Shown here: positions 4,342-41,345 of the stretch, piece after piece
How the letters are laid out: the number at the start of each line of letters is the position of its first letter
Position numbering within the stretch: position 1 is the stretch's first letter
Assembly: GCA_017510445.1 (NCBI GenBank)
Contig: JAFWNF010000005.1
Coordinates: 62,001 to 126,000 of the forward strand
Direction: 5' to 3'
Length of the DNA: 64,000 nt
Source: Candidatus Saccharimonadota bacterium
GTDB taxonomy: Bacteria; Patescibacteriota; Saccharimonadia; Saccharimonadales; Saccharimonadaceae
Program-made: the position numbers and the translations under genes
The notes under the pieces: generated by a model
The model's database searches: none
The model's input: the letters and a program-made list of their open reading frames with translations, nothing else
Told to the model about the DNA's origin: nothing

Positions 4342-5493
4342 TTAGAGATTTCCTATTTTTTCATTAAACCATACTGTTGGTATGCCAATATATTTAACTA
4401 CATATGAAACTTTTCCGAGTACTAAATCTTCCATAATTGCATAGTTATCTTCAGTATTGTTCGCGTCTCCCTTAGTATAATATAATTTTTTCTTGTCGCT
4501 TTCTTCAATTTTGACAATTCGGTGGGTAATTATGTTCCCGCCCATTGAATATGCCATTACATCGCCAACCTTTAATTCGCTTTCTTTATCATAAATTATT
4601 GCATCGCCACGATCAAATGCCGGAGACATCGAACCGCTCGCAATAGCAATCATCTTATAGCGTAAGATCCCAGAAATTAACACAACTAATGTCAGTAAAA
4701 ATACTACTGCAGGGACAGTAACGATTGAAATGTTCCTTCTTCTTATGCTTTTTGCTTTATCAATCTCGCCACCATGCTTCACGACTTCTTTTGGCAAGTT
4801 TTTGCGCGCCAATCTGTAAATTAGGTAGGGTACAAGTACCCACATCACTGAATACAGATATTGGCTAAATGCTGGCGCAATTGGCAAAATATATAAATAG
4901 AGATTCTTAGCGAATCTATAAACAAATGTTGGAGCCATTCCTGCACGCTTCATGAGAAAAGTCGAGAGCATTCCCTCTGCAACTGTTGGCATGATAATAG
5001 TCGACGTAACAATAAATGCAGTTTCGATAGAATTGATTTCAGTGGTTCCAATTTCGGCAAAAATTGCAATCGCCGCCAAAGTAATCGTGACGAGTACAAG
5101 CATAAGCTTGCTTTCGTAAGCGCTACCGACGATTATTCTTCGCAAAAATTCTTGAGCTACAATTAACGCCACAATTGGCAAGAACTTGTTCAAAAACACT
5201 TCGATAGATAAAGGTACGAATGTTCGAGTGAATCCAATTACTAACCCGAGCGTAAACCCTAAAATGAGCACGGCCACTAAAACGGCTACGACAGATTTCA
5301 GTGCAATTTTAGCGTTGGCATGATTAGTTTTTTGCGGTTTCAAAGCGATATTTGCAATCACTGCAAAAAGCACCACTAATCCAATTTGTAGTATGGTTTT
5401 TAATGTGCTTGATATTGGTGTGAAGAGGATGACTATTGCTAAAACTAGCAACGCTACGCTAATAATGACAATAGATTTCTCATTCCTCTTCAC
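4342..5493 (-). CDS. signal peptidase I, SipW/ER type, with long multi-helix N-terminus
   Basis: 383 aa, GTG start with AGGA 5 nt upstream. The catalytic part is C-terminal: SGS288MSP with the Ser nucleophile, and ITH324RIV, where His replaces the Lys of Gram-positive/E. coli-type enzymes, as in SipW and ER signal peptidases; the GDANNTED box completes the fold. The first ~270 residues carry about seven helices, much longer than SipW of Bacillus (about 190 aa) but like the long Firmicute forms. Expected to cleave the signal peptide of the TasA-like protein encoded 20 bp upstream. Same operon as the DUF5305 and Hint proteins. Confidence 0.88.
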   Translation of the reverse strand: MKRNEKSIVIISVALLVLAIVILFTPISSTLKTILQIGLVVLFAVIANIALKPQKTNHANAKIALKSVVAVLVAVLILGFTLGLVIGFTRTFVPLSIEVFLNKFLPIVALIVAQEFLRRIIVGSAYESKLMLVLVTITLAAIAIFAEIGTTEINSIETAFIVTSTIIMPTVAEGMLSTFLMKRAGMAPTFVYRFAKNLYLYILPIAPAFSQYLYSVMWVLVPYLIYRLARKNLPKEVVKHGGEIDKAKSIRRRNISIVTVPAVVFLLTLVVLISGILRYKMIAIASGSMSPAFDRGDAIIYDKESELKVGDVMAYSMGGNIITHRIVKIEESDKKKLYYTKGDANNTEDNYAIMEDLVLGKVSYVVKYIGIPTVWFNEKIGNL

Positions 5494-38023: not shown

Positions 38024-39043
38024 TTAGAGTTCGTAGTCTAGTTTTTTATGGGATTTTTTGATTTTGAGAATTACGATGATGGAGATGACTAGAGCCTCAA
38101 TACCGGCGAAGATGATTGTCGCGACAACTGAATCATTCTCTTTTTTTAGGGCTCCCGTTTCTGGAACGTCGGCAGTTTTGTCTTTGGTTTCCTTTTTATA
38201 CTGATTTTCTGGTTTTAAGTCTTTATTTTCCTCTGGAGTAGGCTTTGGGGCTGGATTAGATTCTGGCGTAGGGGTTGGTGTAAGTTCTGGGTCGGGCTCC
38301 GGTTCCGGTTCAGGAGTAGGCGTTGGTTCTGGACCAGGCTCCGGTTCCGGTTCTGGTTCAGGAGTAGGATCTGGAACGATAGCTTCACAAGTAAACTGAG
38401 CTTTATAGGTCGCATCGCCAGTAACTTCAACAACCGTCGGAGACCAGCCGCTAAAAGAATAGTTGCATTCTTGGTCAGACGCTTTAACTGGGGTGTCGCC
38501 GTCATAGGTCGGAAGATCTCCATAACCAACTTGTTCATCGACCTCTAGCGTGGAATCATTATCTCCTAGCCAGGTTACCTCGTAGGCTTTGCGATTTAGG
38601 TGAGCAGTGAACGTGTCGTTGCATATGTTGTCGCTGTTTTTAATAGTTTGAATTTCGTTAATTTGATCGGACCTAAGGGGAGATCCAGCTTCGATGTTTT
38701 TTTCGCCAACTACGACGTCTCTGTTTATACTCCAATATTCAATTTCGTATTCATCTGTGAAGTCCGTTTTAATATAGGGGAAATATTCATATTCATAATA
38801 TGCCCCTACAATATATTGGTATGCTTCGTCTGGGATCTCTAGTGAATGCGTCAAGTTTTCCCCGCTAAAATCTGCTTCGTATTCCGGTCCCGGATCACAT
38901 AGCGTGATGCCTCTAGTTGCGCCGTCAGCATAGGTATTGTTTAGGGCAGAAAGGCTTTGGTTAACTAAAATACCGAAAACGCTACAGAATAGAAAAATAA
39001 AGACGATAAAAATTGATTTTTTCCTTAAAAAATTTTTTAACAT
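38024..39043 (-). CDS. sortase-type surface protein with InlB B-repeat and Pro/Glu stalk
   Basis: 339 aa from the ATG at 39043, where the signal peptide ([20 protein letters not shown]) begins properly; the in-frame ATG at 39124 would add 27 basic residues and lies in the promoter. After an N-terminal domain comes a Listeria-Bacteroides (InlB B) repeat ([36 protein letters not shown]), a PEPxP stalk of ~60 residues, and a sorting signal VPETG at 293-297 with helix and KIKKSHKK tail. VPxTG is a variant of LPxTG. Two tandem -35/-10 promoters. Confidence 0.87.
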
Positions 39044-39077
39044 TTTTGACCTTTTTGTTTTGACCTTGTGTGATTTA

Positions 39078-39106
39078 AGTATAAGCTTTATTTTTCGTTT
39101 TGTCAA
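39078..39106 (-). promoter_or_regulatory. proximal promoter of the VPETG gene
   Basis: TTGACA, 17-bp spacer, TATACT. Confidence 0.75.
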
Positions 39107-39185
39107 TAATGTTTTTAAAAACAAAAAATTCCCACTGGGGAGATGGGTATTCCAAAATAATCAGCCACTTTTCAGGCTTAACTCC

Positions 39186-39237: not shown

Positions 39238-39246
39238 TGATAGAAT
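39238..39246 (+). promoter_or_regulatory. leaderless extended -10 box of the phosphoketolase genes
   Basis: TGA-TAGAAT 6 nt before the ATG at 39253. Confidence 0.65.
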
Positions 39247-39252
39247 ATGGTT

Positions 39253-40182
39253 ATGATCAAAAGTGTGGGCGAACTTGAAAAAATTTCTAGGAGAATCCGA
39301 GCGACGGATTATCTAGTTGTCGCGCAACTTTTTTTGCAAGATAATTTCCTACTCGAGAGAAAACTGGAATTTTCTGATATTAAACCGAGACTTCTAGGAC
39401 ACTGGGGGAGTTGTCATGGGATTAATGTCGCGCTTTCGAATCTACTGAGCTTTTTTAAGGGTGATGACAATTTTTCTTTCATTCTCGGACCTGGACACGG
39501 TTTTCCGGCGCTGAACGCTAATTTGTTTATTGATGGAAAACTCGATGAAAAGAACCTTGCAGATTTTTGTCGTAAATTTTCGTGGCCCGGAGGTTTTCCA
39601 TCACATTCAAGTCCGATGACGCCTGGGGTAGTAACAGAGGGCGGAGAACTCGGATACGCACTGGGAACCGCCTATGGGCAAGTACTCGGACACCCAGAGA
39701 AGACGGTTGCAGTACTTCTAGGAGATGGCGAGATGGAGACAGCGACAGCACTGGCATCGATGAATCTGAATAAACTGATTTCGGGAAAATCGAACGGGAA
39801 GGTTTTACCGATTTTACATCTAAACGGCTATAAAATCTCTGGGCCAACGATTTTAGGGCGAAAAAGTGAACGGGAAATACATGAACTAATTCGAGGATTT
39901 GGGTATGAGCCGATTGAGGCGAAAGGCGACGAGCCTGGGGAGTTGATGTTTGCGCTCGAAAAAGCGGATTTCGTTTTTCATCCATTTATAATCATGCGCA
40001 CAGAAAAAGGGGCTGGTGGACCAGATTATTTGGACGGGAAGAAAGTGGCTGGGAATTTCCTTGCGCATCAAATCCCGTTACCTCTGGCAAAAACTGACGA
40101 AAAACAGCTTCAGATTCTTGAGGATTGGCTTTCTTCCTATAATTTTTCGGAACTTTATGACGGAAAGGAGTTTCTTTTATGA
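39253..40182 (+). CDS. phosphoketolase, N-terminal (thiamine-PP) subunit
   Basis: 309 aa from the ATG at 39253 (leaderless spacing; an ATG at 39247 is also in frame). Matches the N-terminal domain of xylulose-5-phosphate/fructose-6-phosphate phosphoketolase: KPRLLGHWGSCHG, LGPGHGFPA, FSWPGGFPSHSSPMTPGV, EGGELGYALGTAYGQ, thiamine-PP motif GDGEMETA...LHLNGYKISGPT, and AHQIPLPLA near the end. It stops (TGA) at the linker that joins this domain to the pyrimidine-binding domain in normal ~800-aa enzymes. The stop overlaps the next start by ATGA, so the second half is translated as a separate chain. Confidence 0.9.
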   Translation: MIKSVGELEKISRRIRATDYLVVAQLFLQDNFLLERKLEFSDIKPRLLGHWGSCHGINVALSNLLSFFKGDDNFSFILGPGHGFPALNANLFIDGKLDEKNLADFCRKFSWPGGFPSHSSPMTPGVVTEGGELGYALGTAYGQVLGHPEKTVAVLLGDGEMETATALASMNLNKLISGKSNGKVLPILHLNGYKISGPTILGRKSEREIHELIRGFGYEPIEAKGDEPGELMFALEKADFVFHPFIIMRTEKGAGGPDYLDGKKVAGNFLAHQIPLPLAKTDEKQLQILEDWLSSYNFSELYDGKEFLL

Positions 40183-41345
40183 TTGAAAAAGTAGAAAATC
40201 CTGGTTCAGAAAAGTTTTCACCAGCGAGAAAATTCGGACACCTTCTTCGCGAAAGAATCGAGAAAGATCCAAGGTTTTATCTGTTTTCGCCAGATGAAAC
40301 GACAAGTAATCGACTTGATGAAGTGTTTGAGGTTGCGACGAGAGCTTGGGCGACGAAAAAAGAGGGTTTTGATTTACCAGAGAGCGAAAGCGGACGGGTT
40401 ATTGAACTACTTTCCGAAAACACGCTGTTTGCGGTGATGATTGGGCATATTATGAACGGCGAGCAGGCGATGATGACGAGCTACGAGGCGTTTTTCTCTG
40501 TTATTTTGTCACAAATCGTGCAACAGATTAAGTTCTTTAAACAGAGTGATAATGTGCCTTCGAGGCCAAAATATCCAGCGGTGAACCTACTCTCAACGAG
40601 CACCTGTTTTAGACAAGATCACAACGGGTTTTCGCATCAATCACCGGTAATGATTTCGGCACTTCTCTCTATTCCGAGCAATAAAGTGAATTGTCTTTTC
40701 CCTGTTGATGATGTTTCGGTAGAAAAAACCTTTGATTTTATGTTGAAATCTGAAAATGTTGTAAATTTTACAACATTTGATAAAAACGATAACCCAAGGT
40801 GGATTGATTCGTATCATGCACAATTTTTGTTTGATAACGGGGGCGCGAGCGTTTATCGCTTTGCATCTGATAATGACCCAGATGTGGTTTTGACGGCGAT
40901 AGGGGATATTGTGACAAGAGAAACGCTTTTTGCGCGAGATATTCTCAAAAAAGATATGCCGGAGCTAAAAATTCGCTTCGTAGGGATAAATGCGCTTTCT
41001 TATAACGCAATCGGAACTACCGACAATAAACTTAATAAAAACGTGTTTGATGAATACTTTACAAAAGATAAGTTAATTGTCGCGAATTTTCATGGTTATC
41101 CAGAGACTTTGAAACATATTTTAGGGCAATATACTAATGAGGCGAGAATTTCGGTACACGGATTTTCGGAAGAAGGCTCAACGACAACGCCGTTTGAAAT
41201 GCTAGCGCTCAACCATGTTTCGAGATTTGATATCGCGATGGACGTGGCGGAAAAGTTCGGCAGGTTTGATTTGAAAGAAAAATATCTAGCGGAAATCTCA
41301 AAAAACCACGAAAATGCTCTGAAAACAGGTTTGGATTTGTTTTAA
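40179..41345 (+). CDS. phosphoketolase, C-terminal (pyrimidine-binding) subunit
   Basis: 388 aa. Begins where the middle domain starts: FYLFSPDETTSNRLDEVFE, GRVIELLSENT, YEAFFSVILSQIVQQIKF, RQDHNGFSHQSPV, and a C-terminal XFP_C part (KLIVANFHGYPETLKHIL, HGFSEEGSTTTPF). With the 39253 product it adds up to ~697 aa, ~100 less than fused enzymes; the loss falls mainly at the linker. Together they should split xylulose-5-P or fructose-6-P with phosphate into acetyl-phosphate and an aldose phosphate. Contains the palindrome at 40754-40778. Confidence 0.9.
   Translation: MIEKVENPGSEKFSPARKFGHLLRERIEKDPRFYLFSPDETTSNRLDEVFEVATRAWATKKEGFDLPESESGRVIELLSENTLFAVMIGHIMNGEQAMMTSYEAFFSVILSQIVQQIKFFKQSDNVPSRPKYPAVNLLSTSTCFRQDHNGFSHQSPVMISALLSIPSNKVNCLFPVDDVSVEKTFDFMLKSENVVNFTTFDKNDNPRWIDSYHAQFLFDNGGASVYRFASDNDPDVVLTAIGDIVTRETLFARDILKKDMPELKIRFVGINALSYNAIGTTDNKLNKNVFDEYFTKDKLIVANFHGYPETLKHILGQYTNEARISVHGFSEEGSTTTPFEMLALNHVSRFDIAMDVAEKFGRFDLKEKYLAEISKNHENALKTGLDLF
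40754..40778. repeat. perfect 25-bp palindrome inside the phosphoketolase gene
   Basis: 12-bp arms AAATGTTGTAAA / TTTACAACATTT around one T. Read as N-V-V-N-F-T-T, same phase as the copies in glmS and murB. Confidence 0.9.

Follow-up and report, generated by a model that had tools for sequence, protein, structure and literature searches.

The microbe from which the window (the whole 64,000-nucleotide stretch of Candidatus Saccharimonadota DNA that was analyzed) originated very probably has a phosphoketolase made of two subunits, most likely arranged as alpha2beta2, which would give its genus the means to obtain acetyl phosphate from pentose phosphate. The genes and their conservation were observed directly, and from these we infer the assembly, stoichiometry and activity of the enzyme.

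Gene pair, domains and active site

The features of the gene pair in the window are as follows.

39253..40182, forward strand: phosphoketolase N chain (thiamine-pyrophosphate domain, XFP_N), 309 aa, complete ORF
40179..41345, forward strand: phosphoketolase C chain (pyrimidine domain XFP and XFP_C), 388 aa, complete ORF
40179..40182, forward strand: ATGA stop/start overlap of gene 1 and gene 2, four bases shared
40164..40170, forward strand: Shine-Dalgarno-like motif AAAGGAG for gene 2, within the 3' end of gene 1
39394..39411, forward strand: LLGHWG motif of chain 1 with His50 (= B. longum/breve His64); invariant alignment columns, residues from PMC10547157
40611..40637, forward strand: RQDHNGFSH motif of chain 2 with Gln146, His148, Asn149 and His153 (= Gln546, His548, Asn549 and His553); invariant alignment columns, residues from PMC10547157

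The sequence-only reading had proposed two genes of 309 and 388 aa with an ATGA overlap, and this was borne out by the two complete ORFs. Its coordinates were also right, except for the start at 39238, where there is an upstream in-frame stop codon and no start; an alternative ATG of gene 1 is located at 39247 and gives a chain of 311 aa. The source genome is 858 kb in size and 98% complete, and contains a single phosphoketolase. Upstream of this gene pair, on the opposite strand (38024-39124, -), there is a gene for a predicted secreted protein with a Pro/Glu-rich tract, whose C-terminus has VPETG and a membrane anchor of the sortase type.

Phosphoketolase (Xfp/Xpk, EC 4.1.2.9/4.1.2.22) is typically one polypeptide of ~790-830 aa, although this is not strictly defining, and the window enzyme departs from it with its 309 + 388 aa. 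Chain 1 was assigned to Pfam XFP_N (E 5.1e-88) and chain 2 to XFP (E 2.4e-47) and XFP_C (E 1.8e-45); the three domains are in order, all above the Pfam cut-offs, and distributed over both chains. The break therefore lies between the thiamine-PP and pyrimidine domains, where it had been placed by the sequence-only reading. The same six NCBIfam phosphoketolase models were matched by both chains in consecutive parts (e.g. 6-336 and 396-742 of 788), and either chain alone was below the whole-protein cut-offs of these models (best 302 and 307 bits vs 777-1518). The chains do not belong to the transketolase family, as the phosphoketolase models scored far higher and Transket_pyr obtained 22 bits against a cut-off of 27.

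The active-site model of the Bifidobacterium enzyme comprises 13 residues, namely His64, His97, His142, Gly155, His320, Gln321, Ser440, Glu479, Tyr501, Gln546, His548, Asn549 and His553 (PMC10547157). When these were mapped from the B. longum/breve enzyme, all 13 were invariant across 18-19 aligned split species, six of them on chain 1 and seven on chain 2, in agreement with the earlier claim that the recognizable motifs were intact on both sides of the break. AF2 models were made of each window chain singly (pLDDT 88.5 for chain 1 and 91.1 for chain 2). In Foldseek, phosphoketolases ranked best for both models (TMq 0.86-0.90 for chain 1 and 0.88-0.93 for chain 2) and transketolases second.

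Comparison with known enzymes and the shortened linker

To our knowledge, all phosphoketolases with solved structures are one-chain enzymes. They include a Saccharibacteria phosphoketolase of 799 aa (PDB 9cd3/9cd4, cryo-EM, released 2025), which belongs to the same lineage as the window enzyme and was the best match of both chains in sequence and fold (9cd3; Foldseek identity 48% and 38%). However, 9cd3 is one chain with the full linker, while the two chains in the window amount to 697 aa, ~102 residues fewer. Counted from the alignments of the chains to 9cd3, the missing residues comprise ~30 at the junction, ~11 at the N-terminus, ~32 in chain 1 loops, ~13 in chain 2 and ~16 at the C-terminus. 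The spacing from HQxP to PDET was 71-87 aa in the splits (76 here), compared to 107-115 in canonical fused enzymes, and the comparison across relatives showed that the canonical linker segment is absent in all splits. The loss of linker residues noticed in the sequence-only reading is thus real, but its size is ~30-40 residues and not ~100, the rest being spread over both chains. A side observation concerns chain A of 9cd3, which has PSSASP where other phosphoketolases, including the splits, have His142 (PSH); either a mutant or a genuine difference could explain this.

The cut is shared with the transketolase of C. hydrogenoformans, in which the PP domain is on chain 1, the Pyr and C domains are on chain 2 and the linker is missing (PMC7661550). 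The single chains of that enzyme were inactive, and the mixed chains were active and formed alpha2beta2 (PMC7661550). It is nevertheless a transketolase, to which chain 1 of the window phosphoketolase showed a weak match (E 1e-10). The two-subunit sulfofructose transketolase of Faecalicatena and Clostridium, anaerobic gut bacteria, is a further split member of the superfamily, with a reaction and family different from those of the window enzyme (PMC11659671). Split transketolases were thus already known, and the split phosphoketolase is another case of a two-gene enzyme. The pair in the window does not represent a new family; it is a two-chain variant of phosphoketolase that is undescribed in the open-access PMC literature, where our search found no paper on a split or two-subunit phosphoketolase.

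SeXPK of Synechococcus (PDB 8io8; PMC10365998) has the same family and active site as the window enzyme. Its ATP-sensing residues W703, H706, Y710, R711, H719 and R721 (PMC10365998) align to E309, K312, G316, Q317, S325 and H327 of chain 2. With these residues replaced, ATP control as in SeXPK would not be expected in the window enzyme.

Distribution and evolution of the split form

A search for the split in other Saccharibacteria, as the sequence-only reading had suggested, found it in ~60 species that were assembled separately. By frame length, a split-sized XFP_N frame (304-408 aa) was present in 61/62 same-genus species with a match, a count made by hand from two search lists, and the exception (G283) had an XFP_N frame of 725 aa. 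Elsewhere in the family, splits occurred in seven species of genus g32, two of g149 and one each of g42 and g176. In the genus and its sister genera, the ORFs of 61 distinct split loci were read directly; the sources of the split sequences include metagenome-assembled genomes, and the named relatives that carry the split are Candidatus Saccharibacteria from the rumen, from the gut of goat, sheep and water buffalo, from horse faeces and others. Because nearly every same-genus species with the gene and several sister genera have it, the split is an inherited trait and real, and not a sequencing error. Outside these genera, the gene was fused, both within the order and in the remainder of the phylum (381 genomes sampled), with frames mostly of 760-985 aa. 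Genus g38 contains phosphoketolase-like ORFs (L079 of G204, and G257:C3:33423-34571; 837 and 743 aa) that are very divergent and were matched only weakly by the XFP models.

In a tree of 143 rows, 55 splits were located inside one clade of 58 rows (SH-aLRT 100), together with three fused rows. The AU test rejected a clade of all splits, with or without the fused locus L063 (p 1e-5 and 5e-11), and at least three changes of the split/fused state are therefore required. This test ruled out that the split arose once and did not change later. The three fused rows (L063, L076 and L080) are natural in-frame joins of both chains. L063, which belongs to the exceptional species G283, looks like a later re-fusion, because it is deep among the splits and a hairpin-forming stretch joins its frames. 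This stretch, near 5374-5393, is a G+C-rich imperfect palindrome that replaces the junction and links the two halves in frame (hairpin of -47.6 kcal/mol, z -4.1); a search for the insert in viral contigs found none. L076 and L080 (genus g42) are fused and are also devoid of the canonical linker segment; they could likewise have been re-fused, or the surrounding splits could have arisen independently. The comparison with split transketolases made by the sequence-only reading thus holds for the architecture, that is, the cut between PP and Pyr + C and the loss of the linker (PMC7661550), with the amendment that the split clade also contains fused copies. As these copies show, function does not depend on the split. 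PIN/TRAM and PBP1, which lie downstream, are for the most part conserved within the genus, which indicates that the phosphoketolase locus is vertically inherited.

Metabolic setting

Acetate kinase was found in 24/24 same-genus genomes searched and transketolase in 0/24 of them. In contrast, transketolase was present in 16/16 genomes of other families of the order and acetate kinase in 1/16; the latter genome (G051) is also the one with a phosphoketolase among the 16, a fused form that adjoins the acetate kinase gene. In the source genome, the RpiB and Rpe genes adjoin each other, and no match was found for 6-phosphogluconate dehydrogenase or PfkA-type phosphofructokinase. With acetate kinase, RpiB and Rpe present and transketolase absent, phosphoketolase would appear, as inferred from gene content, to be the route by which glyceraldehyde-3-phosphate and acetyl phosphate are obtained from pentose phosphate. 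In the soil Saccharibacterium T. rhizospherense, the phosphoketolase gene adjoins acetate kinase and has been proposed to function in the formation of acetate and ATP (PMC6031116).

Some further observations were made on these genes. The 858-kb source genome has two different acetate kinase genes (C9:135783-136928 and C5:61780-62901). In other families of the order, transketolase itself is split into ~285-300 + ~325 aa (L215:2182-4054, with Pfam domains checked on this locus, L216:1999-3969, L217:1966-3790, L218, L219, L220, L221 and L228), mostly within a cluster of GAPDH - (rpiB) - rpe - TK-N - TK-C - aldolase. The counterpart cluster of the source genome (L225:1517-4600, on C6) consists of GAPDH - rpiB - rpe - PfkB-type kinase and is devoid of transketolase genes.

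Alternative explanations

The two frames would be joined by a change of one base at the overlap, and the window comes from an assembly of 19 contigs; it could thus be argued that the pair arose from an error in sequencing or assembly, or is a normal one-chain phosphoketolase gene that recently became a frameshift pseudogene. The probability of this is practically negligible. The same split recurs throughout the species described above, all splits are devoid of the canonical linker residues, and the junction is conserved: a 4-base ATGA-type overlap (-4) was present in 39/61 distinct split loci (-23 to +37 nt in the others), and an SD-like motif lay just upstream of the second start, inside gene 1, in 56/61. 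Moreover, dN/dS of the closest pairs was 0.006-0.056 for both chains, far below 1, and both chains are under strong purifying selection. Sequencing error and pseudogene formation were ruled out by this recurrence, the junction, the SD-like motif and the low dN/dS, and the view that the split is stable rather than a frameshift was upheld. A different picture was found in Shewanella marina, whose phosphoketolase (L160:3784-6212) is interrupted by a stop followed by 223 nt before the next start; this is what a real break or error looks like, unlike the conserved Saccharibacteria split.

Programmed -1 ribosomal frameshifting at the overlap, yielding one joined protein or both forms, is very improbable. 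Where the overlap is ATGA, the second frame is indeed -1 to the first, and the SD-like element is just upstream. However, there is no conserved slippery heptamer at the junctions, and the relative frame is inconstant over the range of offsets (-4 and -7 vs -17 and -20 nt), so that no single shift would work. A stop within 7-60 nt of the gene 1 end usually closes the second frame, and in at least nine species it is one codon before the start of this frame. These variable junctions and second-frame stops ruled out programmed frameshifting as a general mechanism; with the SD-like motif, the nearby stops fit reinitiation and speak against a frameshift product. A somewhat less remote, yet still improbable, alternative is that the chains assemble but have gained transketolase-like C2 transfer as transketolase was lost, and no longer act mainly as a phosphoketolase. 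The genus is without transketolase while the source genome keeps Rpe and RpiB, and the absence of the linker in a split transketolase has been proposed to give space to bulkier substrates (PMC7661550). Against this, all active-site residues of phosphoketolase were kept, and acetate kinase, which consumes acetyl phosphate, was in every genome of the genus searched.

Proposed function and implications

For the two-subunit phosphoketolase that we favour, chain 1 would supply the PP domain that binds the diphosphate and Mg, and chain 2 the Pyr domain with the catalytic Glu, plus the C domain. Chain 2 would be translated by reinitiation at the ATGA overlap, aided by the SD-like site inside gene 1, and this may couple the levels of both chains. 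Their assembly, most likely as alpha2beta2, would then place ThDP between the PP and Pyr domains as in the one-chain enzymes. The predicted activity is cleavage of pentose phosphate, provided by RpiB and Rpe, into acetyl phosphate and glyceraldehyde-3-phosphate, after which acetate kinase would make ATP from the acetyl phosphate. A wider scenario, which we regard as rather unlikely, is that the two-subunit phosphoketolase replaced a lost transketolase (itself split in relatives) throughout the genus as the sole connection of pentose phosphates with triose phosphates, perhaps with a transketolase-like side activity, and was repeatedly split or re-joined.

That a two-chain version without the canonical linker exists in nature suggests that this segment can be dispensed with, and such a version provides an easy test of PP and Pyr domain assembly. 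The split form would escape family models that apply whole-protein cut-offs, and the route to acetyl phosphate in these bacteria with reduced genomes is therefore easily mis-annotated or called missing. The genus combines a split phosphoketolase and acetate kinase with no transketolase, and its sister families show the reverse, which makes the central carbon route of the genus testable.
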